DNA of 64,000 bases, taken from positions 1,550,001 to 1,614,000 of the forward strand of contig NZ_ADVG01000001.1 in NCBI RefSeq assembly GCF_000178855.1, given 5' to 3'. This DNA is from Ktedonobacter racemifer DSM 44963 (GTDB lineage Bacteria > Chloroflexota > Ktedonobacteria > Ktedonobacterales > Ktedonobacteraceae). Position numbers and translations under genes: made by a program. This document shows, one piece after another, positions 9,611 through 62,905 of the stretch (positions within the stretch are counted from its first letter, which is position 1; each line of letters begins with the position of its first letter). Below the pieces are notes generated by a model, which made no database searches, had not been told where the DNA came from, and saw only the letters and a list, made by a program, of their open reading frames with translations.

Positions 9611-9800
9611 ATATGAAGCATAGTTTTGCAGAATCTGCAAAACTCAGTGGTTAAATGACATTCCCAACATGTGCCGTCCGCGATAATTTTAGAATAGAAT
9701 GAGCACGAGGAGGGCAAAAAGTGGCCTTCTAACTTTAGAAAAATCCGCAATAAAATTAGAAAAAATGCCAGAATCCGCAGTGATTTTTAAAAAAGGACTT
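9611..9800. repeat. modular intergenic element (hairpin module + TCCGCAATAATTTTAGAA module)
   Basis: The first part is a perfect hairpin AGTTTTGCAGA/TCTGCAAAACT (about 9622-9644) followed by TTAAATGACATTCCCA. The second part starts GTGCCGTCCGCGATAATTTT and contains AGAATAGAATGAGCAC, then an imperfect hairpin (AGGAGGGC/GGCCTTCT). After that come two more copies of the word TCCGCAATAAAATTAGAAAAA-like. The same module is found at about 23.93, 40.99, 56.67 and 62.80 kb. Here it lies between two convergent genes. No reading frame explains it. Confidence 0.8.
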
Positions 9801-10053
9801 TTAGAAAGTTGAAGAGCCAGAACGAGTCAGCAGATAGCTCAAGGAAGGTGATACTAGTAATTTTGTGAACGGATGTACCAGGTAGCCAGTACAGCGAGGG
9901 GTGGTCTGCTCACGCCTATCACGCCCATGGAGAGATTCGTGGCTCTCAGGCTCTCTGACATCTCTTCAAGGAACCAGCCCTGACATTCTTGCATCGCCTC
10001 AAACGTGAGCTGTAAATTATGGGCTTATGATATCGTGTGACGCTTTGCATGGT

Positions 10054-10087
10054 CTCGTCACCTGCTCTCAGTAGAGCAGGTGACGAG
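10054..10087 (-). terminator. 15-bp hairpin after the S9 peptidase gene
   Basis: CTCGTCACCTGCTCT (10054-10068) pairs perfectly with 10073-10087 around a four-base loop. It begins nine bases past the S9 peptidase stop and separates it from the convergent regulator gene. No T-tract follows on either strand, so it may be a stabilising 3' hairpin or a bidirectional terminator of non-classical type. Confidence 0.65.
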
Positions 10088-10095
10088 CATTGTGC

Positions 10096-12204
10096 TTATA
10101 CGTACTCTTCCGGACGGATGTCGACGTACTGGCGGAACCAGTCGAGCATAATTTCCCAGCGTTCCAGCATCAGAGCGGGTTTCTCCGCGCCTATATGCCA
10201 GTGACCGGGAACACGCACGAACTCGACGGGAACCTTGCCCATGAGCTTGAGCGCGATATAGAACTCTTCCGACTGGCTGATAGGACAGCGCAGGTCGTTC
10301 TCTGGATGATAGATGCGTGTAGGCGTTGTGACCTTTCCGGCGTGTGTAAGAGGTGAGCGGTCGTGATAATATGCAGTGCGTTCCGCGTCCCATGGATACC
10401 CTTTTGATTGGAAAGCCATCCAGAAGCCGATATCGGAGGTTCCCACGAAGCTTGCCAGGTTGGAGACGCCCGCCATTGGGACCGCCGCCTTGAAGCGGTC
10501 CGTCTGCCCAATAATGCGCATGGTCATGTAGCCGCCATAGCTGTAGCCTGAGACAACTAGGCGTTCGGGATCGGCTATACCACGTGTGATACACTCGTCT
10601 ACACCACGCATGATGTCCTGATAATCCCAGCCACCCCAATCGCCCTCTACCTGGCGCACAAAAGCCTCGCCGTAGGTTGTGCTGCCATGGGGATTGCAGT
10701 AGAAGACGGCGAAGCCCTGCGCCGCGCAATACTGCAAGAAGGGGTCCATGCCAGCGCCAAAGGCTGACTGTGGCCCGCCGTGGATATGCAAGAAGAGGGG
10801 ATAACGCGTCCCCTCTTTATACCCAATCGGTCGAAGCAACCAGCCTTCGACCTGCTCGCCTCCCGAGCTTTCATAGGTGATGCGTTCCGGTTCGCTGAGC
10901 GTGACGGGGGCTAATAGCGTATCGTAGAGATGCGTTAACCTGTGCTCCTCACTGGGCTGCCCATCGCGTAGTTCCAGACGGTAAAGCTCCCACGGGTGTG
11001 TCGGTTGGCTCTGCGCGTAGATGATGCCGTGACCGCCCGGCAAGAGGTCGAAGTAATGGGTGACGTGTTCCCCTGCGGTCAGTGGTATCTGTGTGTTGTG
11101 CTCAACATCAACAGCATGCAGATTGACGCGCCCATGCTCGGCGATGGCGAAGTACACGCGTTTGCCATCCTCGCTCCAGCGTGGCTGGTAGGGCGTTGGA
11201 GACCCCAGGCGCATGCCAACGGTTGGTGCAACATCATAATCCAGGTCGGAGAGCAGCGTGCGCATCTCGCTGTCTTCACGTGCGATCAGGCGCAACCGAA
11301 TAACGCTTATTCCCTCTTTATTCATATCCTGCGCGGCTAGTACCGCAGCCTGGCTGCCGTCAGGGGACCAGGACCAGCTATGTACCTGGAGCGAACTATC
11401 GGTGAGGCAACGCATCTCGCCCGTTTCGATATCTATGTTCCACAGATCGGTAACCCAGGTGCGGTCGTAGTCCTCATTGCGATTGGTGGCCAGGCTGATC
11501 TCATGGCTATCTGGAGTCCAGCGAATGCCATAATGGTCATAATCGCCCGTGGTCAGGCGCCTGATATGTTGCGGGTCTATGGGCTGTTCGCTCGCGTCGC
11601 CGGGTTGAGGCGCGGGCATGACAAAGACGTGCATACGCTTCTCAAGCATGCCACGGCCATCCAGACGATACCAGACGCTTTTGATGGTACGCTGGCGATA
11701 GCGTTCCTCTTCGTCCTGGCGCTTCTTTGCCGCCTCGTCCAGTATCTTGCGTCCCGTGAGCACATCGTCTTCATCGGAATTGAGGGCGGCGGATGTCAGG
11801 GCAATCCATTTGCCATCGGGTGACCACGCCACTTCATTGATGCCGCGAGCGAAGTTGGTGAGCTTACGTGCTTCGCCTCCGCCCATCTCCAGAAGCCAGA
11901 GTTGCGCCTTGTCTCCCTCTCGATTGGAGGTGAAGAGGAGGCGCTGGCTATCAGGTGACCATACGGGAAAGTTGTTCTGTTTCCCGCCGCGTGTCAGGCG
12001 TACAGGTTCGTTGAGAGCCTGTCCATGCTCGTCCAGACGCAGCAAATAGATATCACTCAGCACTTCGTTGCTGGCTTTGTCCTTGAGCGCGAGGCTAAAG
12101 ACCACGCTCCGACCATCAGGCGAGAGCGCCACGTGTCCCATCTCCGGCAGGGTCCACAGGTCATCGTGCGTTAGTTTGCGTGTTGACACTATCACATCGG
12201 CCAT
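10096..12204 (-). CDS. S9-family serine peptidase (prolyl oligopeptidase / acylaminoacyl-peptidase type)
   Basis: The protein has 702 residues when started at the ATG at 12204 (MADVIVSTRK, with AAAGGA upstream) rather than at a TTG two codons earlier. Residues 1-420 are a WD40-like beta-propeller with TolB-type repeats (WSPDSQRLLFTSNREGDKA, WSPDGKWIALTSAAL). The C-terminal alpha/beta-hydrolase domain has the nucleophile in VVSGYSYGGYMTMR, the acid in HPENDLRCPISQSEE and the histidine in RVPGHWHIG. It cleaves short peptides in the cytosol. Immediately upstream on the same strand lies the C-terminal crumb of a second S9 peptidase, showing that this was once a tandem pair. Confidence 0.93.
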   Translation of the reverse strand: MADVIVSTRKLTHDDLWTLPEMGHVALSPDGRSVVFSLALKDKASNEVLSDIYLLRLDEHGQALNEPVRLTRGGKQNNFPVWSPDSQRLLFTSNREGDKAQLWLLEMGGGEARKLTNFARGINEVAWSPDGKWIALTSAALNSDEDDVLTGRKILDEAAKKRQDEEERYRQRTIKSVWYRLDGRGMLEKRMHVFVMPAPQPGDASEQPIDPQHIRRLTTGDYDHYGIRWTPDSHEISLATNRNEDYDRTWVTDLWNIDIETGEMRCLTDSSLQVHSWSWSPDGSQAAVLAAQDMNKEGISVIRLRLIAREDSEMRTLLSDLDYDVAPTVGMRLGSPTPYQPRWSEDGKRVYFAIAEHGRVNLHAVDVEHNTQIPLTAGEHVTHYFDLLPGGHGIIYAQSQPTHPWELYRLELRDGQPSEEHRLTHLYDTLLAPVTLSEPERITYESSGGEQVEGWLLRPIGYKEGTRYPLFLHIHGGPQSAFGAGMDPFLQYCAAQGFAVFYCNPHGSTTYGEAFVRQVEGDWGGWDYQDIMRGVDECITRGIADPERLVVSGYSYGGYMTMRIIGQTDRFKAAVPMAGVSNLASFVGTSDIGFWMAFQSKGYPWDAERTAYYHDRSPLTHAGKVTTPTRIYHPENDLRCPISQSEEFYIALKLMGKVPVEFVRVPGHWHIGAEKPALMLERWEIMLDWFRQYVDIRPEEYV

Positions 12205-12231
12205 ATGCAAAAGTCCTTTCTGTACGGAGAA

Positions 12232-12375
12232 CTATGAGCGATTGTCGTACTCTTCGGGGCGAATCTCGATGTAACGCTCAAACCAACCGAGAGTTTGCTC
12301 CCACATGGCGAGGGCTTGCCCCGGTTTGGACGAATCACCATGCCAGGTACCGGGGACACGTACGACACCGACTCA
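12232..12375 (-). pseudogene. C-terminal remnant of a second S9 peptidase
   Basis: The minus strand reads RVPGTWHGDSSKPGQALAMW and then GWFERYIEIRPEEYDNRS before a stop at 12232. It lines up residue for residue with the end of the adjacent intact S9 peptidase (RVPGHWHIG ... DWFRQYVDIRPEEYV). Its upstream side is cut off at an in-frame stop. The stop lies 27 bases before the intact gene's ATG, as expected of an operon of two paralogues. Confidence 0.85.
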
Positions 12376-12432
12376 CATGATAGGAGGTCTTCCGCCATTT
12401 TGATGATTACTGCCTGCTGTTGACTTTTCAGC

Positions 12433-14090: not shown

Positions 14091-14395
14091 CCTGAAAAAG
14101 GTCATGGTTTGCTTGAGCTTGCTGTCCTTAAACGGCTCGTTCAGTGCGACCAGAGCCAGTGGGCCTGTCCGCCGGAAACCAGGGAATGCCGCAAGATTGC
14201 TTTTTACAAGTGTGTAGGTGGGGTCGATCCCAAGCGCGCGTTTCAATGCCACTTCGGCTTCATCGTAGCGTTCCTGCATCATCAAGCAGATTCCCAGGTT
14301 CCCCCACGGCAGCGGCAAGCAATCTCCCATGGCAAGCTATGTCTGAAATGCCTGCCCGGCTTCCTCCCTCTTACCGCTCTCCATATAGTTCTTTC
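14091..14395 (-). pseudogene. TPR-protein C-terminal remnant with internal stop
   Basis: The frame reads a TPR pair (GKREEAGQAFQT, stop, LAMGDCLPLPWGNLGICLMM, QERYDEAEVALKRALGIDP). An in-frame TAG at about 14341-14343 replaces one codon inside the first repeat. The tail GFRRTGPLALVALNEPFKDS is not a repeat. Its 5' edge coincides with the 3' end of the helical-repeat gene at 14449, and its 3' edge with the crumb at 13945-14090. It appears to be one of several pieces ligated together by deletions. Confidence 0.7.
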
Positions 14396-14448
14396 TCCTC
14401 ACTTTCCCTGGTCACGCGCAGCGAAGGCACGTGGCTTCAGTGCCCCCA

Positions 14449-16080
14449 TTAGAGACCTCTTTTGTCCAATTCTTCTTTCAACGCTCGTAAGCTCTTATTG
14501 CTGTTCCGCAGGGTGATAATATACCTCTCCCATTCCGCTTCCTGCCCCTGCTTCTGGTACAAGCGTTTGATCCGGGTCAAGTAGCCTGTCGCTTGCTGAT
14601 AATTTTCGCGTCCGCGCCCATCAATGAGTCTTTGGACCACAGGCTTGTACAGCCGAATCGCTTCATCCGGGTAAGACTTCTCCGCAGCTTCTGCCACTTG
14701 TGCCTGGTAGTGACTCGAAGGTTCCCCAGAGCGGTACCCATAGGACGGTGCCCCTGGTGTGCGCTCCATCTCCGCCAGGGCTGCGAGCGCCTGGCTGACC
14801 TCTTTCTCATCCAGGTAGAGACTGACGAGTGCCCCCCAACGGCCTTGCCGCTCTAATGTCTGGATCAACTGTGGTCGCAGGCCAGGCCAGAGATCTCCTG
14901 GCTGACCAGTTGCCAGGGCCGCCGATCGGACGGAGCGATAGGTAGTATGATCCGGGTTCGCCTGGAAGCGTGCGAGCTCCATGTCCACAGCTTGCTTTGC
15001 CTTGCCGTACAAGAGGTACTTTTCGCCCAGCCAGCGCCGGTACGTATTGATGGTCTGTGCACTTGTGAAGTCCTGCGGCTTGCCGTGCAGGGCAGGTTTG
15101 ACCTCGCCCAGCCTCACTTCCACAAATGCCAGGGCCTGATCTTGCCACAACTCCCCTGATTTCAACAACTGCTCTGCAAACCAGGTCACGTCCATTGGTT
15201 CGGTCAAGTTGGCCTGGGCAACGGCCAGTGCTTCCTTTTGACGGCCAAGCTGCAAGAATTTCTCCGCCATTTCTTTGTACAGACCGACTTTGCGATATTC
15301 TTCAAGGACATCTTCATCGCTGAAGTGCTCTGCCTGCTTGAGCGTTGCCAGAAAGTCGATGATGTGGCGGCTGTGCCACTTGCTTGAGAAGTCCTGGCCG
15401 GGTCTCAGCTCCTCACGTATCCATATCTCAATGCTCTTCCGTTCCTGTGCTGTTGCGTGCTCCGCCAGCGCCTCAGCGACATTTTCCCCAATTCCACCAT
15501 AATTGTAGCCAAATTTCCAGAGATCAAACAGCGTCGTCAGCAGCTCCTCGCGTGCTGAAGGACCCAATCGTTCATGTTGTGGAAGAGTAGGCTGAGCATT
15601 CAGACAGGCGACCAGGCCAGCAGCGCACTCCTCCAGAACCCAACTGACCTGGCCCTCATCGTGTAACCCCTCATAGTGGGTCATTGTTTCCTCAGCAAGC
15701 GTTGCATACACCACCTGCGCGTTGGCCCACTCGCCCGCCTCGGCAAAGTCCTTGCCAATGTCGTAGAGCTGCTCTAAATCAGCTGCAACGCGGCTGGCAG
15801 CATCCCATCCTTCTCCCGCATGATAGAAAGCCGAGTCCACCTGACTTCGAATAGCGGAGGGATCAAGTGTACGCTCTCGCCCCTTGCCTGGCCGCTTCTT
15901 CTGTTGCGTCGTCGGAACCAGCGGCAGTTCTACCAGTAGTTCTATTAAGGGTTCAATCTCAGGCTGTCGCTGCACCAGCTGCTCTAGTAAAGCCAGGAGC
16001 TCTTCGCGGCTCTTTTCGCCGAGCTGTCCCATGAGCCCCGACTGATCTTTCCCATCCGCTCCAGGGTGGACTTTTGCCAT
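14449..16080 (-). CDS. SWIM-associated helical-repeat protein (large alpha-solenoid)
   Basis: A 543-residue, soluble, almost all-helical protein, started at MAKVHPGADG (16080, RBS GGAGG). It begins with a charged linker and a basic stretch (QKKRPGKGRERT). From about residue 75 on there are degenerate TPR-like helix pairs (GKDFAEAGEWANAQVVYATL, KMAEKFLQLGRQKEALAVAQ-type). The sequence resembles the long C-terminal solenoid found in SWIM zinc-finger proteins, but the CxC..CxH SWIM finger itself is not present in this frame or nearby, so I treat that link as inference. It diverges from a small gene at 16351. A decayed copy of the pair exists at 54.2-56.7 kb. It probably acts as a scaffold; no catalytic motif is seen. 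Confidence 0.7.
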   Translation of the reverse strand: MAKVHPGADGKDQSGLMGQLGEKSREELLALLEQLVQRQPEIEPLIELLVELPLVPTTQQKKRPGKGRERTLDPSAIRSQVDSAFYHAGEGWDAASRVAADLEQLYDIGKDFAEAGEWANAQVVYATLAEETMTHYEGLHDEGQVSWVLEECAAGLVACLNAQPTLPQHERLGPSAREELLTTLFDLWKFGYNYGGIGENVAEALAEHATAQERKSIEIWIREELRPGQDFSSKWHSRHIIDFLATLKQAEHFSDEDVLEEYRKVGLYKEMAEKFLQLGRQKEALAVAQANLTEPMDVTWFAEQLLKSGELWQDQALAFVEVRLGEVKPALHGKPQDFTSAQTINTYRRWLGEKYLLYGKAKQAVDMELARFQANPDHTTYRSVRSAALATGQPGDLWPGLRPQLIQTLERQGRWGALVSLYLDEKEVSQALAALAEMERTPGAPSYGYRSGEPSSHYQAQVAEAAEKSYPDEAIRLYKPVVQRLIDGRGRENYQQATGYLTRIKRLYQKQGQEAEWERYIITLRNSNKSLRALKEELDKRGL

Positions 16081-16350
16081 TGGGGGTTTCCTCCGTTCCA
16101 TTTCTCTGCCAGCGTCTCAAAGTGGCTCCACGTTCACCGACCGCATGGCCTGGCGCTTTCAGATCCCTTTTGCCTGGGACCTGTTTCTCCTCCTGTATGA
16201 AGATCCCAAACATGTTATACCTCAAATCTTCTAACGAAACAACATCTGCCAGGAGGAGCACCGGCGATCGGCATAAAGCACCTGTCCAGGATGCCAGAGA
16301 GATGATATGGTATACAGAGTGAGGAGTTGTCAGAAAAAGAGGCAAAGCAG

Positions 16351-16665
16351 ATGAGAGAAAAGCGAAAGAAGAGCCATAGGCCGAGCGGTGGAAACCGAAG
16401 AGTCGATCAAGTTGATAATGAGGAGGCAACATTCAATCCTTATTTGAAAGCGGCGATCCTGAAGGTGGTCGAGAATCAAGTTCGTAACAGTGATCCTCCT
16501 GAAACGCAGCTGGCACTTGAGAGACTACTGGGTAGAGGGTACTCGCGCAAGCAAGCCATAGAAATGATAGGATCTGCGGTGGTAGAAGAGATCTGGGCTG
16601 TAATGCATGACCACAAACCGTTTGATCGAGCGCGTTTTACCACATTACTCGAGCAGTTGGGCTAA
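16351..16665 (+). CDS. small conserved protein, DUF1841-like
   Basis: A 104-residue protein, started at MREKRKK. A lysine/arginine-rich N-terminus is followed by a helical domain with NPYLKAAILKVVENQVRNSD, PPETQLALERLLGRGYSRKQ and AIEMIGSAVVEEIW. The ENQ...DPPE...L..L...G..R..A....G spacing resembles DUF1841-type proteins; function unknown. It diverges from the helical-repeat gene, and the same divergent pair is repeated at 54.2-56.7 kb, which argues that the two work together. The two copies differ mostly in the basic N-terminus and are nearly the same in the helical domain. Confidence 0.75.
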   Translation: MREKRKKSHRPSGGNRRVDQVDNEEATFNPYLKAAILKVVENQVRNSDPPETQLALERLLGRGYSRKQAIEMIGSAVVEEIWAVMHDHKPFDRARFTTLLEQLG

Positions 16666-16946
16666 AGTATCGGACAGCCTCAAGCCAAGGAAGATGGGGA
16701 AGATAAGGGCCCCACCTGTCTGGCCAGGGTATCGGATACTCTGCAGGCTCGCAGAATCAAGAGTGTCCTCTGGGCAGCTAGCTTTATCTGCCGCCTTGCA
16801 GCTTCGAGATGCAAGAATCGTATGCAAATTTTGCCTCAACAGAACGTCTCTCTCTAGAGAGTTTTATATTCTTTTCCATCCATTCGTTTTTCTGATCCTT
16901 TTCATTTCCATGGCACCATGTACAAACATGAGAAAGGCTTGCTCCC

Positions 16947-20952: not shown

Positions 20953-20955
20953 TAA

Positions 20956-23552: not shown

Positions 23553-23677
23553 GGGTCTCCACAAATCTGGGTGACGGTCAATTGTGGTGTGACCCACTAG
23601 TAGAAAAACAACGAAGCGGGCATCGACGCAAGCTTCCTGTCAATTTTACAACAGTAGCTGTACAACAATGCCCGCTT
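23553..23677. other. nested inverted repeats, possible structured RNA
   Basis: GGGTC (23553) pairs with GACCC (23591), enclosing CCACAA pairing with TTGTGG. Next to it AAGCGGGCAT (23614-23623) pairs perfectly with ATGCCCGCTT (23668-23677) across a 44-base loop. Two adjacent stem-loops in a gene-free block are suggestive of structure, but either could also be the trace of a mobile element end. Confidence 0.4.
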
Positions 23678-23933
23678 ACAATCATTGATGATCTAAGCCA
23701 ATCACTCATCATTTGTCACTAACACGTGAATACAAGAGATGCCAAATACACCCATTTCACTCATGAAAGCAGAGGCATATGGAGTTGAACCTACCAGAGG
23801 CTACGTTGAGCGGACTTTGGTATGTAGCAACTGTGTAGCAACGCCCCTTTACAACCATTGATTTGGAGAGATACCCATTGACAGTACCTCTTCTTTACTC
23901 GCAAAATCGAGACGGTAATTGATGCACCAGCTG

Positions 23934-24060
23934 TGCCGTCCGGAATAATTCTAGAATAGAATGAGCACAAAGAGGGCCATTTTAGGCCCTCTAACTTTAG
24001 AAAAATCCGCAATAAAATTAGAAAAAAGGTTGGAATCCGCAGTAATTTTAGAAAAAGGCA
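23934..24060. repeat. copy of the TCCGCAATAATTTTAGAA element
   Basis: Starts GTGCCGTCCGGAATAATTCT and contains AGAATAGAATGAGCAC, then a perfect hairpin AGAGGGCC/GGCCCTCT. It then has AACTTTAGAAAAATCCGC and two more copies of the word. It lies downstream of the pentapeptide gene, as does the copy at 62.80 kb, and forms the left edge of that duplicated block. Confidence 0.85.
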
Positions 24061-24183
24061 TTTGGGATTTGTGACTCGCCAATGGTCTTGACCGAAGCCA
24101 CCTCATGGCGCACTGGTTGTTATTCTCCTAAACGATCCTGTGGTGTTGGGGGAAGAGGAGAGAAGGTAAGATTTTCAGCCAGG

Positions 24184-26189: not shown

Positions 26190-26435
26190 GAAAAACGGAA
26201 GCATAGTTTTGGAGCGAGAAATAGGAAGCATAGTTTTAGAAAACCTCTAAAACTATGGTATTAATGACAGGCACATGCCATTATTCCCACGGTCTTGCAG
26301 ATGAGTGAAACCATAGTTTTGCAGAGAGTCGGGGTCGTCTGAGCTTGAGGAAAGAGGCGGCTACCTCCGATTTTGGACTTTCGCGTCGTGAGCCGTTCTG
26401 ACGAGGAAGCATAGTTTTGCAGAAAAACTTCATAT
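26190..26435. repeat. CATAGTTTTGCAG-type intergenic element
   Basis: Begins GGAAGCATAGTTTTGGAG and carries a perfect hairpin AGTTTTAGA/TCTAAAACT (about 26223-26245), then ATGGTATTAATGACAGGC. Two more copies of CATAGTTTTGCAG follow near 26313 and 26408, the last in GGAAGCATAGTTTTGCAGAA. The whole 240-base arrangement is repeated at 52795-53035 with substitutions, including changes in the hairpin that keep it paired. Confidence 0.85.
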
Positions 26436-26497
26436 TCAGGAGAATAGGCGATCTGAATTCATTTTGTGGTTGACTGCCCCACTCACCGTCTCCCTTC

Positions 26498-37350: not shown

Positions 37351-37611
37351 ATACCTATTATAGGGGAAGAAATATGAGAAGAATATGAGAGCGATAGATG
37401 GCGGTACCAAAAGTCAGTTTTCCCCACGGGTGTTTCAGCTTAGCAAAACTTGCGACCTCTCTGGTAGGAATAGGAAACACGAGAATTACCACACATAAAA
37501 TGACGGTACAAAGTGGTTGAAGCAAAAGTAGGAAGCTACTCTTATTCTGCTTCTATCAAGCAATTTCTAAGTCCATTTCTTCATTAATTAAACGCACCAA
37601 TAAGGCATAGA

Positions 37612-37830
37612 AAAAGGAAGTATAGTTTTGGAGAGAAAAAAGGAAGCATAGTTTTGGAAACCTCCAAAACCTATGGGTAAAATGACATTCCCATCAAGTT
37701 GGGAATTCCACCGTAACTCCGAAATGAGATGAGCACGATTTGCCAAAAGTGCTCATTTCAACTCCGAAATATTCCATGCTAACTCCGAAATAAGTAAGCT
37801 ATTCCACCGTAACTCCGAAATAAGTAAGCA
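37612..37830. repeat. composite intergenic element: CATAGTTTTGG hairpin + AACTCCGAAAT words
   Basis: The left part has two CATAGTTTTGGA-type words and a hairpin TTTTGGA.../TCCAAAA followed by TATGGGTAAAATGACATTCC. The right part has the word AACTCCGAAAT four times (37712-37830), the first followed by GAGATGAGCAC and the spacer GCACGATTTGCCAAAAGTGC. The order of modules is the same as in the element at 9.61 kb, but the repeated word is different. Confidence 0.8.
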
Positions 37831-37892
37831 CCTGTTTTATGTGGCCTTTCTTGGAGAACTTTCAAAAAACATGTTTCATAACGAAAGCTTAC

Positions 37893-37958
37893 TTGACAAA
37901 TAAAGTGCTCCTCTGATATCTTTTAATACATAAATAAATAGATATATATCTATTTATT
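37893..37958 (+). promoter_or_regulatory. promoter followed by a 26-bp perfect palindrome
   Basis: TTGACA (37893-37898), 18 bases, TATCTT (37917-37922). Eleven bases on, a perfect 26-bp palindrome begins (AATAAATAGATAT and its complement, 37933-37958). It would sit at the start of the transcript and could be an operator for a dimeric repressor. The next gene on this strand starts at 38200, leaving a leader of about 250 bases. Confidence 0.6.
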
Positions 37959-38199
37959 GTCGCGATCCATCTTAAGGTGCTCGCTCAATTGCTAAAAGTC
38001 TGGCTCCTCATTTCAGACTTTTGCTGGAATCACAGACGTGCCACCCTCGCACCAGGCTTCGGGGGGAAGCCACATAGTTTCTCTCAGGAGAAACCATTGG
38101 ATACTCTTCTGCATCGTCCGTTTGCTTGCTGTAGGAAAGATAACGCCTGGCAAAGCGGAACTCGACAATACAGAAGGGCGAAGGAAAAAGGAGATTTCC

Positions 38200-39822
38200 A
38201 TGAGGCACCGGTATTTCAAGCGTAAAAGCATGCTCTCTCTCTTACTGGCGCTTTCCCTGGCCACAGGCTTCGCCATTGGCCTGATGGCCAACATGGGGAG
38301 TAGCACGCATGCCGCAGGCTTACGGTTTTCATCTTTCGCTGCGTACGTCAACTATGTGCGTGCCCATCATAAGGCGCCGTACGACATGGATGCACAGGCC
38401 GTTATGCCAGCCGGCAGCGCCAAAGCTCTGGCGAAACAGTCACACGCGAGCATTTCTGCTGTCAGTAGCACAAGCAATGTCCGTGTCACCCAGGACAGCA
38501 ACCCCTGGCCCAAGGCTGAGATTGGCTCGGCTATCAACCCGGCGGACGGGAACAACTACGTGGTCATGAGCAACGATTTCCGCGAAAACTTCGATCACCA
38601 GTTCTTCCATGTCTCGACCAATGGCGGCAAGAAATTCACCGACGACTCTATGGTCGGCGGCAACGATCCTTTCACCGGTTTTGTCCCGCTGACCTTCCAG
38701 AGCGATCCCGGTGTCGCCTTCGATAGCTCTGGCAACCTTGCCCTGAGTACCATCACCGGCAACCTGATCTTTGATTTCACCAACGGCTACGAAAACCTGG
38801 ACTCGCAAATCGAGGTCGCCATAGGCCAGCGTACCTTCGCCTCACTGCTCCCAACGGTCATTGATACTCAGCCCTGCAATGGCACCTTCACATTCTTTAG
38901 CTGCTTCGCCACGCTGGATAAGCCGCTCATCACCGTGGATAATGTCAAGGGCAGTCCGAACAACGGCACCATCTACGTCTACTATACACTGTTCTGTAAT
39001 GGCGGCCCGAAAGGTGAGCCCTGTGTTGATGGTAGCGCCACAATCCCGGCGAATAGCTCGGCTATCCTGGTTTCCAGCGCACCCGGCGCGGGCGGTCAGT
39101 TCTCAACTCCAACGCTGGTCAGCGGCTCGCTCTTCCAGGAGCAGTTCTCTGATCTCGTCGTTGACAGCCATGGCACGCCGCACATGTTCTTCGATGACTT
39201 CTCAAGCTTCACGAACATCAACATGATGGAGTCTACCCTTGTCAATGGCGCCTGGGTGGTCAACCCGAAGCCGGTCGCGACCTTCAACTTTACCACCACC
39301 GGCAATAGCAACTGGGGCTTCCGCGACAGCGGTACCGTGGCTCCGGGCTGCGGTATCAGGAAAGATACGGCCTATTGCGCCTTTGGCGCCAACCAGATCG
39401 GCACTGGCCCGGTCGCCAATACCTCCAGCGTTTTCCTGGCCAGGGTGAACACCCTCACCGGTGCGTCAACCATCAGCCAAGTGAACAACGACCCCTTCCT
39501 GGGCAATAAGCATCACTTTTTCCCCTGGGCTACGGCGACCGCGAATGGTGTCTATGTGGGGTGGTATGATGACCGCCGAGATCCATTCAGCGTGAAAGTG
39601 GATTACTTCGTTGGCAAGTCCACCGACGGCGGCAAGACTTTCCCAGTACAAAAAGCCGTTAACGATGTCAGCTTCAACCCCTGCACAGGCTTCCCAGGCT
39701 GCGGCTTCTTCGGTGACTACACGCAGCTCGTCTCTGGCCCGGACAATGTGGTGCATGCAGCGTGGTCCGATACCCGCGACGGAGCCAGCATGCAAATCTG
39801 GAGCCAGTCAATAACCTGGTAA
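38200..39822 (+). CDS. secreted sialidase/BNR-repeat-like protein
   Basis: 540 residues from MRHRYFKRKSMLSLLL (38200), preceded by AAAGGAG. A Sec signal peptide (LLALSLATGFAIGLMANMG, cleavage probably after THAA) exports it. The mature part begins with a helical stretch (YVNYVRAHHKAPYDMD) and continues as a beta-propeller with Asp-box-like turns (VSTNGGKKFTDD, KSTDGGKTFPVQ). The segment ATANGVYVGWYDDRRDPFSV and AAWSDTRDGASMQIWSQ near the end are typical of BNR/sialidase-fold exo-proteins. I cannot identify the catalytic Arg triad or Tyr, so glycosidase activity is uncertain. An AT-rich operator/promoter region precedes it. Composite repeats of opposite orientation flank it and the next gene. 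Confidence 0.8.
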   Translation: MRHRYFKRKSMLSLLLALSLATGFAIGLMANMGSSTHAAGLRFSSFAAYVNYVRAHHKAPYDMDAQAVMPAGSAKALAKQSHASISAVSSTSNVRVTQDSNPWPKAEIGSAINPADGNNYVVMSNDFRENFDHQFFHVSTNGGKKFTDDSMVGGNDPFTGFVPLTFQSDPGVAFDSSGNLALSTITGNLIFDFTNGYENLDSQIEVAIGQRTFASLLPTVIDTQPCNGTFTFFSCFATLDKPLITVDNVKGSPNNGTIYVYYTLFCNGGPKGEPCVDGSATIPANSSAILVSSAPGAGGQFSTPTLVSGSLFQEQFSDLVVDSHGTPHMFFDDFSSFTNINMMESTLVNGAWVVNPKPVATFNFTTTGNSNWGFRDSGTVAPGCGIRKDTAYCAFGANQIGTGPVANTSSVFLARVNTLTGASTISQVNNDPFLGNKHHFFPWATATANGVYVGWYDDRRDPFSVKVDYFVGKSTDGGKTFPVQKAVNDVSFNPCTGFPGCGFFGDYTQLVSGPDNVVHAAWSDTRDGASMQIWSQSITW

Positions 39823-40094
39823 ACAGACAAGAATGCTTCAAGGGGAGAACAGAGCGATGAGGCTCTGCTCTCCCTCGGAGGATCTGTAACAAAGGGGGGA
39901 AGCGACACATTATCGTACGTTTGCTCCCCTCTTAATCTCATTTTGTTCAGAAAAAACGAGTATGAGGAGCTCCGGTATTTTTACAGTGAAAAGGCGGGAA
40001 CTTTTTTCCTTTCATAAATGTTTCTCCTTTGTTATATCACTCTTTCTGGTATAATTTGGCGGCAGAAGGATCGGAAACCAGAGAGGCTTTTCAC

Positions 40095-40709
40095 ATGTAT
40101 TCTCTGTCAATCAAGAACGGTTCTCTGTGCGAGAAAAGAAAGAATCTGGCGATGCGGGTGAAGATTGCTCTTTGCCTCTGGTTCTGCCTCCTCCTTGGAG
40201 GATGTGGATATAACGCGTCGGGAACGGCCGACTCTCCCTCGCCAACGGTGACCACACTTTCGCCTACACGGGCCACGCCAGGATCTCTCACTCCCGGCGC
40301 AAACGCCTCTGCAATCGTTTCTCCTGGGAACACACCAGCGCCGGTATCCGGGCTGGTAACGGTGCAAACGTCGTCAGCGCTCTACCACCCGAGGAATACG
40401 ATTGTGGTCACGATCTCCTCTCACATGGCCCGTGTGATCCTTTTCCCGAACGGTCAGACAAACTGTTCGGTTGTCCTCCTCCAGTTGCAGACAGGCTCCT
40501 CCTGGCGATCCATAGCTCTCTGTAAGCTCATGGTTCTGACTAGAATCGCAACGCTTGAAGCAGGTAAGAGCCTGACCGTCTCCCTGAAAGCCGGGTTTAC
40601 GCCCTGGCCTATTGGCACCTATCGCATTGCCTTTCAATACAGTGGTCACACGGGCAGCGTATTTGGATCCTCTCAGGAAGCCTTTTCGCTGCTCTTTCAG
40701 GTGAGCTGA
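40095..40709 (+). CDS. putative lipoprotein, immunoglobulin-like
   Basis: The hydrophobic stretch IALCLWFCLLLGGCGYN has a lipobox (LGGC), so the mature protein starts at that cysteine and is lipid-anchored. A Thr/Pro/Ser-rich linker leads to an approximately 130-residue beta domain (SALYHPRNTIVVTISSHMAR, CSVVLLQLQTGSSWRSIALC, WPIGTYRIAFQYSGHTG) resembling the Ig-like 'protease inhibitor/intein-less' folds of bacterial lipoproteins; I do not name a family. The start at 40095 has a GAGAGG RBS but gives a long n-region. The internal start at 40152 gives a textbook signal peptide and is equally possible. Confidence 0.65.
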   Translation: MYSLSIKNGSLCEKRKNLAMRVKIALCLWFCLLLGGCGYNASGTADSPSPTVTTLSPTRATPGSLTPGANASAIVSPGNTPAPVSGLVTVQTSSALYHPRNTIVVTISSHMARVILFPNGQTNCSVVLLQLQTGSSWRSIALCKLMVLTRIATLEAGKSLTVSLKAGFTPWPIGTYRIAFQYSGHTGSVFGSSQEAFSLLFQVS

Positions 40710-40809
40710 TGAGCAAGTAAGTTAAGTCACGAATCGAAGTCAGCCTTTTTTTGAATGCGTCAACACGATCAGAAAAGACTTCAAACGTATAAACAGAAAA
40801 GGAAAACTG

Positions 40810-40895
40810 ATGGTTCTGTCGTAGCCCAGATTCTTGGTTCTGTCAGAATTCAGAGAAAGGCGGTTCTGTCAGAACTGAGAACACGGTGTTGTTGA
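40810..40895. repeat. GGTTCTGTCAGAA word repeated three times
   Basis: GGTTCTGTCGTAGCCCAGA, GGTTCTGTCAGAATTCAGAG and GGTTCTGTCAGAACTGAGA occur about 30 bases apart between 40810 and 40895. The layout (three copies, short spacers) is like that of the other intergenic elements, but the word is new and is seen only here. Confidence 0.65.
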
Positions 40896-40924
40896 CCCAG
40901 TTTGGAGGGCCATGGTCACAAGGT

Positions 40925-41115
40925 GCCTACTTTTTTCGGAGTTACACTGGAATGAGCTTGCATTTCGGAGTTATGCAGGAATTCCTACCTGTGCCGTCCG
41001 CAATATCTTTAGAATAGAATGAGCACAAGGAGGACAAAAAGTGGCCTTCTAACTTTAGAAAAATCCGCAATAACATTAGAAAAAGTACCAGAATCCGCAG
41101 TAATTTTAGAAAAAG
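40925..41115. repeat. inverted AACTCCGAAA module joined to a TCCGCAATAATTTTAGAA module
   Basis: 40930-40985 holds CGGAGTT words, the reverse complement of the AACTCCG words at 37.7 kb, with matching flanks (GTAGGCACC/GTAAGCACC, GGAATTCC). At 40990 it passes into GTGCCGTCCGCAATATCTTT, AGAATAGAATGAGCAC, the imperfect hairpin and two more words ending near 41115. Confidence 0.8.
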
Positions 41116-41149
41116 TACTTTTATATCATATTTCTGAAAACCTTGTAAC

Positions 41150-41280
41150 TTGACCCATAGTTTTGCAGGAAGACGCAGTTTGCTAAGCTCAATGGCAAAG
41201 CAGGCCGACTGCCCTTTTCCACCTTCGTCCGAACTAGGGCCTTTTCGGGGAAGCATAGTTTTGCAGAAAAATTTCAGGTG
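41150..41280. repeat. CATAGTTTTGCAG-type element, left edge of a duplicated block
   Basis: Two CATAGTTTTGCAG words (about 41157 and 41254) flank a GC-rich spacer. The second runs into GCAGAAAAATTTCAGGTGTA and AATAAACTG. The right part matches 61540-61620 and marks the start of the duplicated gene pair. Confidence 0.75.
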
Positions 41281-52794: not shown

Positions 52795-53035
52795 CGAGGA
52801 AGCATAGTTTTGCAGCGAGAAAAGGGAAGCATAGTTTTGGAAAACCTCTAAAACCATGGTATTAATGACTGTCATTATTCCCATGGTCTTGCAGATTCGT
52901 GGAACTATAGTTTTGCAGGAAGTTGTAGCCATCTAAGCTTGAAAGAAGAGACGGCTAAATCCGTTTTTTTGGCTTTATGTCGTTAGCTATTCTGATGAGG
53001 AAGCATAGTTTTGCAGAAAAACTTCAGGTATAGTC
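52795..53035. repeat. CATAGTTTTGCAG-type intergenic element
   Basis: Second copy of the 26190-26435 element. GGAAGCATAGTTTTGCAG and GGAAGCATAGTTTTGGAA are followed by the hairpin, ATGGTATTAATGACTGTC, a further ACTATAGTTTTGCAGGAAG, and GGAAGCATAGTTTTGCAGAA at the right end. No gene lies in 52685-53222. Confidence 0.85.
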
Positions 53036-53720: not shown

Positions 53721-54185
53721 TCAAGGTTTTTTAGGAAGTTTCGTCCCATCTCTGACCCAACCTCCGGTCAGTTTGAATGTGACTACTTCCTTGAAATCAT
53801 GCAGCGCCTCAAGCATTTCCTGCAAGGTCATTTGTTGCTGTGTCCCCTGTTTCCATGCTGGCTTGTCGAGTGTTCCAAGTACCAGGTAATCATTGCCAAC
53901 GACTTCTGGCTTTTGCTCCCCGAAAAAGGTGGCAAGAAAATGCTCCACATCGTCTTGATGAGCAATAAGCAGGTCACAGTAGGGGCAATAGCGGCACGTC
54001 TTGTTGAGAGAGAGCACTTGCATTGGATCGACATGGATCACCAGCGGCAGCTTTCGCTGATGCATCGTGTTGTCGCATTGCGGACACCTTGTCCACCGCA
54101 TATCCTGGTACGGATTAAGAAAAAAGCGGTAACGAGGGGGCTGCTTGCCAAGCTGTGTCGTGACTTTCTTCTTCCGATTGGCCAT
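53721..54185 (-). CDS. zinc-ribbon protein of unknown function
   Basis: 154 residues from MANRKKKVTTQLGKQPPRYR behind GAGGAGAAAG. Four cysteines in two knuckles (RCPQCDNTM and CRYCPYCDLLI, about 35 residues apart) form a zinc ribbon, followed by a domain with KPEVVGNDYLVLGTLDKPAW and a helical segment MTLQEMLEALHDFKEVVTFK. No further domain recognised. It lies immediately downstream of the decayed helical-repeat gene on the same strand, in the position where copy A has a TPR remnant. It was probably part of the same operon. Confidence 0.7.
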   Translation of the reverse strand: MANRKKKVTTQLGKQPPRYRFFLNPYQDMRWTRCPQCDNTMHQRKLPLVIHVDPMQVLSLNKTCRYCPYCDLLIAHQDDVEHFLATFFGEQKPEVVGNDYLVLGTLDKPAWKQGTQQQMTLQEMLEALHDFKEVVTFKLTGGWVRDGTKLPKKP

Positions 54186-54243
54186 TCTTTCTCCTCACTT
54201 TCCCTGGTCACGCGTAGCGAACGCACAGGTCTTCAGTGCTCCA

Positions 54244-55859: not shown

Positions 55860-56349
55860 CGAGGTTTCCTCCGTTCCCTTTCTCTGCCAGCATCTCAAAG
55901 TGGTTTCACGTTCACTGACCGCGTGGCCTGGCCGCTTTTAGATCCCTTTTACCTGGGACCTGTTTTTCTTCCTGTACGACGGTCCCGATCATGTTATACC
56001 TCGAATCTTCTCACGAGACAACATCTGCGCAGACGGAAGAGACCGTCGTTGAGGCAGTCGGCAACGGACTTTTTCGGAAAAGATGAACAGTATTCCTCAG
56101 TACATTGCACGATTCAAAGGGTGCTCCCCCAAGTGGTATTCCATGAATCTGAGAATGTGAGCGCCTTGATCTCTTTTCACAGAGTGATGCTTTCTGGCTC
56201 CTGGGCGTTTGGATTGGAGGCAAAGGCGTGCTTCTTTTCCCAGGAGGTCCATTTCCAGACGCCAGCGACTGCTGTAAAGTAGCTGTTCAGAACGCCAGAG
56301 ATAATATAGTATACAGAGGGGGAAGTTGCCAGAAGGAGGAATAAAGCAG

Positions 56350-56664
56350 ATGAGAGAAAAGCGAAAGAAGCACCAGAGGTCAAGCAGTAAAAACCGAGGG
56401 GTCGAACAAGCATATGATGAGGAGACCCCATTCAATCCTTACCTGAAAGCAGCCATCCTGGAGGTGGTCGAAAATCAGGTTCGTCACAATGATCCTCCTG
56501 AAACGCGACAGGCACTTGAGCAACTTCTGGGGAAAGGGTATTCGCGTAAGCAAGCCATAGAGATGATTGGATCTGCAGTGGTAGAAGAGATCTGGGCTGT
56601 AATGCATGACCACAAACCGTTTGATCGAGCACGTTTTGCCGCATTTCTTGAGCAACTAGGCTAA
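56350..56664 (+). CDS. small conserved protein, DUF1841-like (copy B)
   Basis: 104 residues from MREKRKKHQRSSSKNRG (RBS AGGAGG). The helical domain (NPYLKAAILEVVENQVRHND, PPETRQALEQLLGKGYSRKQ, AIEMIGSAVVEEIWAVMHDH) is nearly the same as in the copy at 16351. Its divergent partner has decayed while this gene is intact, so it may serve a function that does not need the adjacent copy. Confidence 0.75.
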   Translation: MREKRKKHQRSSSKNRGVEQAYDEETPFNPYLKAAILEVVENQVRHNDPPETRQALEQLLGKGYSRKQAIEMIGSAVVEEIWAVMHDHKPFDRARFAAFLEQLG

Positions 56665-56667
56665 ATG

Positions 56668-56775
56668 TGCTGTCCTGAACAATTTTTGGAATAGAATGAG
56701 CACAGAAGGTGAAGAACCGTTTTCTCGCCTGAGAAAGAGTATCAGCATCCGCACTGATTGTAGAAAAAGCTCTTT
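56668..56775. repeat. diverged TCCGCA element
   Basis: GTGCTGTCCTGAACAATTTT, then GGAATAGAATGAGCACAGAA, a spacer and AGCATCCGCACTGATTGTAG with AAAAAGC. It keeps the landmarks of the element (GTGC.GTCC, AGAATGAGCAC, TCCGCA..GATT.TAGAAAAA) but with many changes. It lies between two convergent genes. Confidence 0.65.
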
Positions 56776-56934
56776 CCACGTTTTTGCGAGGTTCAGAATT
56801 TCACCAAGTCCTTTCTTCTCTTTTTTCAGACTGGCAGCCACCGATGAACAAAATGATGAGAGAGGGGAAAGAGCCATTGCATCTGGGCAGAAAAACGTTT
56901 CGCCGCTTTCTTCTGTATCGGCATGGACCAACAT

Positions 56935-58056
56935 TTACCTTTCTGGCAACGCAAACGCGCGGTCTTGCAAGCGTTTGACAAAGGCGGGACGACGCAGGTG
57001 TGGCTGGACCCAGGCCGAGAAACGCTCTTGAAACTCCTGGTTTTTCTGGAAGTGGCTGGCGGTCTCACGCAATTCGATCAAGACGCGAACAGCTTCGTCG
57101 TAACCTGCGCCTGAACCACGTGTCACCGCCTGATCGACCTGGTGCCAGTAGTTATCCTGGTGATCGTGAATATCTTGGAGGTGCTGCTGATGGATCTCCT
57201 GCTGCCGTTCACGCTCCTCGCGTTCCTGCCGAGCCTTTATGGTCCTACTTTCGGCGAAGAGGGTAGCATAAGGAACACGCTCACCTCTTGGAAAAATTGG
57301 GCTGGCTTTGCGAGGGTTCAGTTCGCGTAACTCCTTGACAAGCAGGCGGCTCAGACGCGGCTCATTGTGTGCTAATCGAATCAGATAATCGCTACAGCGA
57401 TCTGGGGGCAGCAACTTGACCCAGGCGGCAACATCATCGTCAGTCGATGGTGCGGTTGCTTGGCTATGTTGAGCCGCAGCAGCAAGGAGTTCTTGCGGCA
57501 CCTGTAACAATTCCGCCAATGCTTGCTGCGCTGCTGTTAACTTGCTAAAGGCGGGCGGAACAGGTGGTACATTGATTTCATCGTCCTCTTCATCGCCGTT
57601 TCCCATCATGCGCTGACTGGCCAACCAGACAACATAGAGCGATCGCAGGTCGCCATCCATCAATTCGTCGCGAATGCTGATAAGTGATCCCAGTTCATAG
57701 TCAATCCACTCATCAGGACTCTCCATCTCACCAAAGTGGATATCAAGGATATCATAATCTGGGTGCCGGGTGAACGTGACGAACTCATCGAGATCATAAC
57801 CATTGATGAGTTCGGCTGGCAAGATTCCATGCGGGAAACGCAAAGCCAGTTCGGGCGAGCCCCAGTTGGCCCAATACAGAAAGCCATCAAAAAAGGTGTA
57901 GAGCACTTTGATGGGGTCGTGCTTGAAGTTCCCCCACTGATATTCAATGAGGGCATGGGTGGAAGATACCTCGATATGACTGGAAAGGGCATTGACTGCA
58001 TCGAGTTGTGCCCGTGTCAGAGGTCGATCGCTGGTCATGAATTCGTATGTAAACAT
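56935..58056 (-). CDS. hypothetical protein with C-terminal charged coil
   Basis: 373 residues from MFTYEFMTSDRPLTRA (58056). The N-terminal 150 residues form a compact domain (HALIEYQWGNFKHDPIKVLY, TFFDGFLYWANWGSPELALR, RHPDYDILDIHFGEMESPDE). A Pro-rich link and helical middle (WVKLLPPDRCSDYLIRLAHN) follow. A Glu/Arg/Gln-rich coil comes next (KARQEREERERQQEIHQQHL), then a TPR-like end. The combination 'N-terminal domain + SWIM-associated neighbours' suggests it belongs with the helical-repeat and zinc-ribbon genes next to it. I recognise no catalytic motif. Confidence 0.7.
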   Translation of the reverse strand: MFTYEFMTSDRPLTRAQLDAVNALSSHIEVSSTHALIEYQWGNFKHDPIKVLYTFFDGFLYWANWGSPELALRFPHGILPAELINGYDLDEFVTFTRHPDYDILDIHFGEMESPDEWIDYELGSLISIRDELMDGDLRSLYVVWLASQRMMGNGDEEDDEINVPPVPPAFSKLTAAQQALAELLQVPQELLAAAAQHSQATAPSTDDDVAAWVKLLPPDRCSDYLIRLAHNEPRLSRLLVKELRELNPRKASPIFPRGERVPYATLFAESRTIKARQEREERERQQEIHQQHLQDIHDHQDNYWHQVDQAVTRGSGAGYDEAVRVLIELRETASHFQKNQEFQERFSAWVQPHLRRPAFVKRLQDRAFALPER

Positions 58057-58304
58057 GAAAAAGAATGAGCATCGAGCAGCGAAAAAGGTCACCATAACCG
58101 TAGAATAACTCTGCGGTCAACGTAGAAAAAGTACGCTACAAAACAATAAGCGTGGAACAAGAATATTGAACATCCTGGCATGATGTCAAAGCTGTTTGCC
58201 AGGTCTGTCGCATTGGTTGAAGGTTAGGCTCAACTGATTCAGATAATTGCTCCCAAGGAGCACATGCGTGATATGTTATATGTGAGCAACGAAGGAGGCA
58301 GAGC

Positions 58305-58547
58305 ATGGAAAAAGCACGCGCATTGGTGAACGTTCGAGATATCAACCTGATCTGTCAGTATTACAAGACTTACGCCCAGATTGAGGGCCTAACCAGGAGA
58401 CGCAAAATTACGCGAGCCCGCAGGCGAAAGGGCATTCTGGAAGTCAGAACAGCATCCCGCGACGAATGGATACAGCCTATTGCGTGGATCGAGTGGATCA
58501 ATGATCTGGGCGTATCCATTCGATATATGGCTCAGGATATTCGCTGA
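58305..58547 (+). CDS. 80-residue basic hypothetical protein
   Basis: Starts MEKARALVNVRDINLICQYY behind AAGGAGG. A strongly basic centre (TRRRKITRARRRKGIL) is followed by SRDEWIQPIAWIEWINDLGV. It could bind nucleic acid; no family recognised. Lies 50 bases before the DUF4268-like gene and probably shares its transcript. Confidence 0.6.
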   Translation: MEKARALVNVRDINLICQYYKTYAQIEGLTRRRKITRARRRKGILEVRTASRDEWIQPIAWIEWINDLGVSIRYMAQDIR

Positions 58548-58595
58548 GAGGCCGTTTTTTCTCACAGAGAAACGGGGTAGTAATGGGAAAGAAAG

Positions 58596-59075
58596 ATGAG
58601 AAGACGATCCCAAGGCTCAGAGATCAGCCAAACCTATCATGCCTTCTGGGCGAGTTTGCTTCCGCGATCAAATCGCCAGACGGGCTTCTCACTGCGGAGC
58701 CCGACACGGCGTTCCTCTGTTGAGTTCTGCCGTGTCGGGTTTTGCTTCCGCTATCGTCTGGAGTACAACGCTCCCAATGCGCTTGTTGAGTTTGCACTCC
58801 TGCGCAGTGACAGTGAGCAGATCTACGAGAGCCTCGTTCGTTGGCGAGAGCAGATTGACGAGGCTTTTGGCGGATCATTGCTCTGGTTGCGAGAGACGCA
58901 GCATGCGGAGCATTCCTGGCCACACCCTGCACTTGCCTGGACGATCGCCTGCCCTGGCTTACGTGATCTGGATCGCGAAGCCTGGCCATCGATCCAATCG
59001 CAAATGATTGATGCCATGGTGCGTTTGGAGCGGGCGGTTGTGCCTCATCTCCAACGCTGGCTCGAAGAGGATTGA
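58596..59075 (+). CDS. DUF4268-like protein
   Basis: 159 residues. YHAFWASLLPRSNRQTGFSL at the start, FCFRYRLEYNAPNALVEFAL in the middle and a helical end (QIDEAFGGSLLWLRETQHAE, SQMIDAMVRLERAVVPHLQR) match the layout of the DUF4268 domain, usually the C-terminal part of about 320-residue proteins of nuclease-like neighbourhoods. Here it stands alone or with the basic 80-residue protein in front. A 100-base crumb of a second copy lies at 6105-6203. Confidence 0.65.
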   Translation: MRRRSQGSEISQTYHAFWASLLPRSNRQTGFSLRSPTRRSSVEFCRVGFCFRYRLEYNAPNALVEFALLRSDSEQIYESLVRWREQIDEAFGGSLLWLRETQHAEHSWPHPALAWTIACPGLRDLDREAWPSIQSQMIDAMVRLERAVVPHLQRWLEED

Positions 59076-61625: not shown

Positions 61626-61640
61626 CTCCATCTTAAGTTT

Positions 61641-61798: not shown

Positions 61799-61800
61799 TG

Positions 61801-62133: not shown

Positions 62134-62178
62134 AAGACAAAGGGGCATCAAAGTAGCTGGTGCAAGGATAAATATCTC

Positions 62179-62562
62179 TTAGCTCTTCCGAGCGGTAAAA
62201 ATGTCATCGCGCCATTCCACAATCGTCCCGATGGGAAACTGTGAGGCTGCGGTGACGATCTTTGCAATCGTCTTCTCAACCCCGACTTGTGGCCATCCTC
62301 CCCTTCTGAGGGAAGAACGGATCGCTTGCTCTAATGCAGGACGTCCACCTTCGAGCAGAGCGACTTTCATCGTCGTCGTGCCTGTTGAGGAGTGTACTCC
62401 GCACAAGGAGCGACGACACCCACACGCTCCATCAGCCTCTTCGCCCGTGCAAGTGAAGACAGGGAAGGTGACAATCTCCCCCTCGGGCACGAAGCAGAAA
62501 TCGTTGTCGCGTTGTCCTTGGGTTTGACTTGTTGCAACGAAGATGGGAATCGGTGTACTCAT
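62179..62562 (-). CDS. conserved small protein with CGC motif
   Basis: 127 residues from MSTPIPIFVATSQTQGQRDN (GAGGAGG RBS). EGEIVTFPVFTCTGEEADGA, then CGCRRSLCGVHSSTGTTTMK is a recognisable pattern (C..DGxCGCxRxxxGxxSxxxTTT) of a family I remember from Actinobacteria and Chloroflexota without known function. The cysteines could bind a metal. The C-terminal part (TIAKIVTAASQFPIGTIVEW) is helical. Confidence 0.7.
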   Translation of the reverse strand: MSTPIPIFVATSQTQGQRDNDFCFVPEGEIVTFPVFTCTGEEADGACGCRRSLCGVHSSTGTTTMKVALLEGGRPALEQAIRSSLRRGGWPQVGVEKTIAKIVTAASQFPIGTIVEWRDDIFTARKS

Positions 62563-62689
62563 GCATGCCTCCTCTTCGTCATAAGGGATCATCAGTTTTA
62601 TGGCCTCGCTACTCAGCCAAAAACTGAACTTTTGTTCCATTTTGTCACAGTTTCATGATATTGTCCACTCTTAAGAAGAAGCAAAAAAC

Positions 62690-62734
62690 GATAAAAACAA
62701 ACACCAGCAAGAACGTTGTTTTCGTTCTTGCTGG
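62690..62734 (-). terminator. terminator reading leftward, downstream of pentapeptide gene copy B
   Basis: CCAGCAAGAACG (62704-62715) pairs perfectly with 62723-62734 around a seven-base loop. On the minus strand it is followed by TGTTTGTTTTTATCGTTTTT, a good T-tract. It lies about 300 bases after the pentapeptide stop, with the repeat element in between. Confidence 0.75.
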
Positions 62735-62754
62735 CATCCCTGATTCTCTATCTA

Positions 62755-62905
62755 AGAGAATCTGCAAAACTCATGGGTTAAATTACAAATTCTCACAGTG
62801 TGCCGTCCGCAATAATTTTAGAATAGAATGAGCATGAGGAGGGTCTAGAGTGGCCCTATAACTTTAGAAAAAAGGTCGGAATCCGCAGTAATTTTAGAAA
62901 AATGG
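62755..62905. repeat. half hairpin module + TCCGCAATAATTTTAGAA module
   Basis: AATCTGCAAAACTCATGGGT keeps only the right arm of the hairpin, followed by TTAAATTACAAATTCTCACA, then GTGCCGTCCGCAATAATTTT, AGAATAGAATGAGCATGAGG and one further GAATCCGCAGTAATTTTAGA. It forms the left edge of the duplicated pentapeptide block. One internal word present in the copy at 23.93 kb is missing here. Confidence 0.8.

Follow-up and report, generated by a model that had tools for sequence, protein, structure and literature searches.

The stretch of DNA analysed here (the window) comprises 64,000 nt of Ktedonobacter racemifer DSM 44963 (contig NZ_ADVG01000001.1, positions 1,550,001 to 1,614,000). Intergenic regions at 9.61, 23.93, 37.61, 40.93, 56.67 and 62.76 kb carry short repeated words, and the initial annotation described them as six copies of one modular element with optional parts. 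Our analysis suggests that they are instead the abutting ends of separate, probably Tn7-like, transposon families, as expected if successive insertions used similar distances from selC, the selenocysteine tRNA gene (tRNA-Sec). In what follows, G000 is the genome holding the window, C8 and C10 are its contigs, and other G numbers are relatives; window coordinates that are negative or above 64,000 refer to the same stretch of G000 outside the window.

End families in the window region

Reading all copies side by side gave three end families, A, B and C, and their members in the window region are listed in Table 1. Family A has the terminus TGTGCCGTCC. Its left end carries the word TCCGCAATAATTTTAGAA at about +8, +75 and +105, together with a short hairpin and ATGAGCA at +30, and its right end has words approximately 30 bp apart (72299, outside the window, and G022 C53:9748). 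The terminus of family B is either TGTCATT or TGTAACT, in most cases with CCATGG or CCATAG next to it, and the word is CATAGTTTTGCAGA; the left and right ends of this family differ from each other. At the B right end two words facing each other make up the AGTTTT hairpin, and the end finishes in TTAAATGACA, the sequence previously described as a linker. Family C has the terminus TGGGAATTCC or TGAGAATTCC and the word AACTCCGAAAT.

Table 1. Transposon ends and associated features in the window region of G000
Feature	Position	Strand	Basis or remark
Family B right end, terminus TGTCATTTAACC at 9660; AGTTTT hairpin and TTAAATGACA linker	9609..9660	-	nhmmer E 1.5e-10 (model seed), sequence
Family A left end, terminus TGTGCCGTCC; words at 9677, 9744, 9774; ATGAGCAC at +30	9670..9803	+	sequence, profile
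Sequence X	23600..23926	-	88% and 82% identity to selC flanks of G025, G027; far edge of 65-kb stretch
Family A left end beside X, flank of 5 nt (CCAGC)	23932..24064	+	sequence, profile
Pentapeptide-repeat gene after A left end at 23932	24184-24996		
Family B right end, then GGCACA	26191..26269	-	sequence, profile
Family B left end	26276..26439	+	profile
Family B right end, 12 nt before C left end	37611..37687	-	sequence, profile
Family C left end (TGGGAATTCCACCGTAACTCCGAAAT) with ATGAGCAC at +30 and four AACTCCGAAAT words	37700..37836	+	sequence, profile
Stretch between inverted C ends, ~3.3 kb	37700..40987	+	profile, sequence
Family C right end	40916..40987	-	profile, sequence
Family A left end, 2 nt from C right end	40990..41123	+	profile, sequence
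Family B left end, internal part without terminus	41152..41279	+	nhmmer, model positions 33-160
Family B right end without its last base	52797..52869	-	profile, sequence
Family B left end directly abutting B right end at 52869	52870..53031	+	profile, sequence
Diverged family A left end; second copy at 81219 through a 97% segmental duplication	56666..56775	+	profile
Family B right-end terminus	62755..62787	-	profile (weak match, E 0.007)
Family A left end, middle word deleted	62799..62912	+	profile, sequence
Second pentapeptide-repeat gene, after A left end at 62799	63031-63843		
Further ends outside the window	-2983, 64081, 67205, 72299, 81219, 89091		profile

The repeated words are real, as had been proposed: TCCGCAATAATTTTAGAA has 11 matches with up to three mismatches (0.04 expected) and AACTCCGAAAT has six with up to one mismatch (1.06 expected). 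ATGAGCAC alone is weak (six matches against 2.95 expected, a number reached in 11 of 100 shuffles); its position, however, is fixed. Profile models of the ends, seeded largely from the window-region copies themselves, gave 23 matches with E<1e-5 in a 204-kb region, whereas neither the reversed sequence nor any of 20 dinucleotide shuffles gave one. These are seven A left ends, one A right end, five B left ends, six B right ends and four C matches, with one C end found as two pieces. The profile search that the initial annotation had suggested also found copies in relatives.

The six regions named earlier all hold such ends, but there are more within the window (26.2 and 52.8 kb) and outside it. 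The linker TTAAATGACATTCCCA is present in two of the six (exact at 9651, one mismatch at 37678) and as a variant at 62.8 kb, but not at 23.9, 40.9 or 56.7 kb. The AGTTTT hairpin and linker do exist, but as part of the B right end, which stops 9-12 bp before an A or C end; at 26269 and 52869, B right ends stand without either of these families as neighbour. One continuous decayed mobile element was not found, although the modules are indeed the ends of mobile elements.

The proposal of different words in a common frame stands for two of the families. Of 12 A left ends, 11 have ATGAGC(A/G) at +30/31 (eight times as ATGAGCAC), and all five C left ends, whose words differ from those of A, have it at +30, but it is missing from the first 80 nt of every B end (14 left, 16 right), as well as of three A right and four C right ends. 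In the hairpin between words 1 and 2 of the A left end, 93.6% of 78 cells are paired, compared with 41-65% when the pairing is slid, and two pairs have changed on both sides; 17-36 of 500 shuffles reach this level, and conservation is moderate. This mark and this hairpin are the parts of the proposed common scaffold that hold. The different words are best read as predicted recognition sites of related proteins of differing specificity.

Three direct copies of GGTTCTGTC (the last two as GGTTCTGTCAGAA), 24 and 26 bp apart, lie at 40812-40874 by the C right end and are possibly a fourth family of end words. Single copies of this type are also present at G026 C1:4156762 and 4162146.

Genes bracketed by ends in the window region encode pentapeptide-repeat proteins, a LuxR/NB-ARC/TPR protein, a DEXQ helicase and a BTAD regulator, and insertion sequence (IS) elements are also present. 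The open reading frames (ORFs) 38038-39822 and 40029-40709, in the stretch bounded by C ends, have no match in Pfam, PADLOC or NCBIfam at E 0.001. The region 54185-58617, including the diverged A left end, is 97% identical to 78723-83303 (outside the window), and a third, more diverged partial copy at 14385-16666 halts where the A end starts at 56666. Within the latter copy, an ORF of 550 amino acids (14449-16101), whose DNA occurs in three copies (also near 54.2-56.0 and 78.7-80.6 kb), has no Pfam or NCBIfam family and a weak match to PADLOC PDC-S62.

Ends at selC and a candidate target selector

When G000 was searched with three end queries (E<=1), 22 of 27 places, overlapping ones being counted separately, fell in one 92-kb stretch (C10:1547017-1639091). 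selC lies at the right edge of this stretch, outside the window (G000 C10:1639136-1639230, minus strand). There are A, B or C ends within ~1.3 kb 3' of selC in G033, G034, G022, G026, G046, G021 and G024, the nearest end in G026 being 0.85-1.3 kb away. Each of the 38 ends found at E<1e-5 around selC in seven genomes has its right end toward selC; 18 of them were model seeds and the other 20 are independent of the left/right labels, by tally against the seed list. We examined 34 selC 3' flanks (26, and a further eight judged by eye from 100 nt), taking the final base matched by the Rfam model as the origin for distances. A terminus lies within 50 nt of selC in seven of them, at 24 nt for A, 30, 30 and 44 nt for B, and 22, 23 and 24 nt for C. 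The distance is thus 22-30 nt in six of the seven flanks with a terminus, the 44-nt case being G000.

Two elements show clean target duplications. A 6.1-kb B element at G000 C8:1465729-1471806 has inverted TGTCATTTTACCCATGG / CCATGGTATTAATGACA ends with CAAGC on both sides, and the ORFs scanned within it resemble cargo (Pyr_redox, SDR and HxlR, and one without a family). The A element beside selC in G033 has the termini TGTGCC...GGCACA with GAATT on both sides, which is a 5-bp duplication, and a B right end sits within its right terminus. A C-type element directly at selC in G024 (L183, 217-7196) carries genes for WD40-repeat proteins of 1133 and 240 amino acids, which stand between inverted copies of a gene for a helix-turn-helix protein.

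Taken together, the data suggest that these are the ends of three families of likely Tn7-like transposons, which probably inserted repeatedly ~22-30 nt downstream of selC with their right ends facing it, guided by a TniQ-type target selector. The asymmetry of left and right ends and the several words per end point to a Tn7-like end architecture. A TniQ-type selector would read selC and direct insertion downstream, while the TnsB-type transposase of each family would bind its own word, which is predicted to be the transposase site by comparison with the architecture of Tn7 ends (PMC11406308).

A TniQ gene (PF06527, E 1.7e-8) is present at G045 C319:9773-10156, 4.7 kb inside a B left end, where the contig stops within the gene. 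An N-terminal TniQ remnant with 51% identity over 39 residues lies in the selC island of G033 (C1:4194615-4194731). Relatives of the TniQ fragment were found at E<=1e-4 in two of 400 genomes of the phylum, and these are the same two.

Alternatively, the elements might not be Tn7-like proper but come from another DDE transposon group, Mu-like, Tn5053-like (TniA) or other, and have been moved in trans by a transposase encoded elsewhere, with the TniQ link incidental. Neither 5-bp duplications nor TGT...ACA ends are exclusive to Tn7-like elements, and TniQ was seen with one B element and one remnant only. The strict orientation, the near-fixed distance from a tRNA gene and the asymmetric ends argue against such an origin, as does the finding of TniQ in both places where a target selector was seen. 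We consider it improbable.

Spacing and order within the array

Under the Tn7-like interpretation, each new element would land between selC and the previous element, and the old right end and the new left end would thereby come to lie -1 to 12 nt apart. Such abutting ends account for the chimeric modules of the initial annotation. The gap between the old right end and the new left end should equal d(old)-d(new)+5, where d is the family's distance from selC. From the ends adjacent to selC, d(A) is 24, d(B) 30-32 and d(C) 22-24; the value of 32 is that of a TGTCATT remnant in G000, and the 44-nt terminus was not used. The junction list and exact termini were set by eye from end maps, before permutation and not blind. 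Thirteen of the 15 junctions are within 2 nt of the predicted range, against an average of 5.7 with permuted spacings (P 9.5e-5). B starts one base inside A three times (observed -1, predicted -3 to -1), and A or C follows B at 9-12 nt (predicted 11-13 and 11-15); the family-specific distances and the 5-bp duplication would account for both regularities. A further junction at 64081, where B is followed by a degenerate B at a spacing of 3, was recognised by eye later and is outside the 15.

Some of these junctions could also arise if family B inserted one base inside the ends of other transposons and did not measure a distance from selC. In three genomes (72299, G022 9748 and G025 604614) B adjoins an A terminus whose final base is missing, and it abuts B termini twice (52869 and G033 4230808), two junctions that miss the distance rule. 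However, distances of d(A)=24 and d(B)=30 produce this register as well, the B-B spacings of 5, 5, 6 and 7 and the B-A or B-C spacings of 9-12 fit the rule and not end targeting, and the complete B element at C8:1465729 has no adjoining A, B or C end. Targeting of ends by family B is therefore quite improbable.

It is also conceivable, although doubtful, that one selC-homing lineage swaps its transposase word while keeping the target ruler and ATGAGC(A/G) as a left-versus-right signal, and that swapping evades the target immunity of older families and so leads to pile-up at one attachment site. Same-family junctions number six of 15 against ~7.2 expected from the margins. There is thus no avoidance of same-family junctions, and these data do not support immunity escape as the cause of the word change.

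A sequence of ~330 bp, X, follows selC after 25-26 nt in G025 and G027, so that these two relatives apparently carry an empty site, a selC flank without an array. The window copy of X lies 65 kb from selC, and the five nucleotides CCAGC separate it from the A left end at 23932. Because X is close to selC in the two relatives but 65 kb away here, the region 23.93-89.09 kb is most simply an insertion between selC and X, at nearly the distance found for direct insertions. G032 (L179) was rejected as an empty site since its selC is inverted with respect to the conserved flanking gene block when compared with G000, G033, G034, G022 and G026.

Within X the 3' end of selC is repeated in decayed form (23753-23790, 84.6% over 39 nt), a copy which is also present in G025 and G027 and is perhaps a relic of an older tyrosine-integrase island insertion. 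selC is a classic integrase site and a well-known docking site of integrase-borne islands, and the array itself might then be a tyrosine-integrase island or an integron-like cassette array with the elements as recombination sites. The junctions examined, however, do not have a selC 3' end, and transposons are what one would expect to show termini with 5-bp duplications, multiple words in each end and a left/right asymmetry, which makes this origin most improbable. Equally remote is a regulatory or RNA element with the A left-end hairpin as its working part: the hairpin is kept and has its two doubly changed pairs, but the shuffle support is modest, the window has no Rfam match at gathering scores, and a regulatory element was rejected because the element boundaries lie exactly at transposon termini.

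Several observations weigh against repeated Tn7-like insertion at selC. With regard to the site, 27 of the 34 selC flanks have no recognised terminus within 50 nt, the outermost B end of G000 is 44 nt from selC with the TGTCATT remnant at 32, and ends are also found away from selC (G000 C8 and C10:268801, G024 C2, G026a, G034 C2 and G033 C2). Two of the 15 junctions miss the prediction, both B after B (-1 against 3-7). X does not bound the array, as there are ends past it at -2983, 9660 and 9670, and G025 has an A/B junction (C1:604614) 75 kb past its apparently empty selC (C1:529240); simple stacking leaves these ends beyond X unexplained. Clean 5-bp duplications amount to two cases, one B and one A. 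C termini start TG(A/G)G and not TGT, no C target duplication was seen, and the flanks of the stretch 37700..40987 have no matching 5-bp repeat. For seven A ends the left flank had no counterpart at any recognised right end, and no matching duplication was found within the window in this comparison, in which the positions of two A ends were off by two bases. Mismatched flanks are as expected after deletions, and later internal deletions would have removed transposition genes and many ends, so that the array would reflect both stacking and loss.

Search for transposition genes and relation to known systems

The search for transposition genes bears on the same question. None of the A, B or C elements was found to encode TnsB, TnsC or a complete TniQ, and TniQ was not found in G000. 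PF09299 occurs at three places in G000, none in the island. Among the 47 genomes of the class it occurs at 54 places in 19; 29 of the 54 were scanned with the end models and have no A, B or C end within ~10 kb, the closest being an A left end 20 kb from the place on G000 C8 and facing away. There are 101 rve matches in G000, and none of the matches listed is in the island. The idea that each word is tied to its own recombinase could thus not be shown, as no transposase gene of the expected kind was found within these elements.

Ten large-rve stretches scanned with the end models lacked ends of the three families close to the gene, 28 short loci scanned for the words gave three one-mismatch matches that are likely chance, and repeat searches next to TnsB genes gave no common word. 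Viral contigs had no match to three patterns. Selected window ORFs compared with Pfam, PADLOC and NCBIfam gave transposases of IS type only (IS701, DDE_3 and Mutator), as well as TnpB and other genes. The Cas12f-like Pfam matches seen are TnpB-type proteins, and no search was aimed at CRISPR arrays or Cas genes. As no transposition genes were found in the elements, those of the window are probably non-autonomous or decayed.

Some PF09299 transposase genes of Ktedonobacteria lie within ~25 kb of contig ends (L102, L106, L107 and L113, in G026, G033, G034 and G035), perhaps near chromosome termini.

The array resembles Tn7 (glmS-targeting, TnsABCD) as described in PMC11406308 in its multi-word left and right ends of differing spacing, its 5-bp duplication and a recognised site outside the right end, and in insertion just downstream of a conserved gene, as described in PMC2918618. 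It differs from Tn7 in using selC instead of glmS, in having three end families on one site, and in that no transposition genes were seen in the window elements. Homing of Tn7-like elements to tRNA genes is already known from the accounts in PMC10293859 and PMC11406308, and insertion downstream of tRNAs is stated in PMC8649781. The type I-D and I-B2 CRISPR-associated transposons (CASTs) show TnsD/TniQ-type homing downstream of a tRNA gene, tRNA-Leu for CyCAST, at 30-33 nt, and tRNA-Val for PmcCAST, as reported in PMC10293859. Here, in contrast, the gene is tRNA-Sec, not Leu or Val, and the selector is one TniQ fragment and one remnant. Tn5053/Tn402 (TniABQ) transposons may likewise share a TGTCATTTT-like terminus and subterminal repeats; they hunt the res sites of plasmids, and here the site is a tRNA gene. 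Among the open-access papers listed in our searches, supplements aside, tRNA-Sec or selC as a Tn7-like target was not found, which does not establish its absence from print, and none of those listed names Ktedonobacter.

If our interpretation is correct, selC would be a new target in the TniQ/TnsD repertoire, and its selector might offer a new way of reading a programmable insertion site. The array also represents a natural experiment in which end families with different words have used one attachment site, and its spacings are precise enough to suggest the order of insertion. The region would then be a record of rival transposons sharing one docking site.

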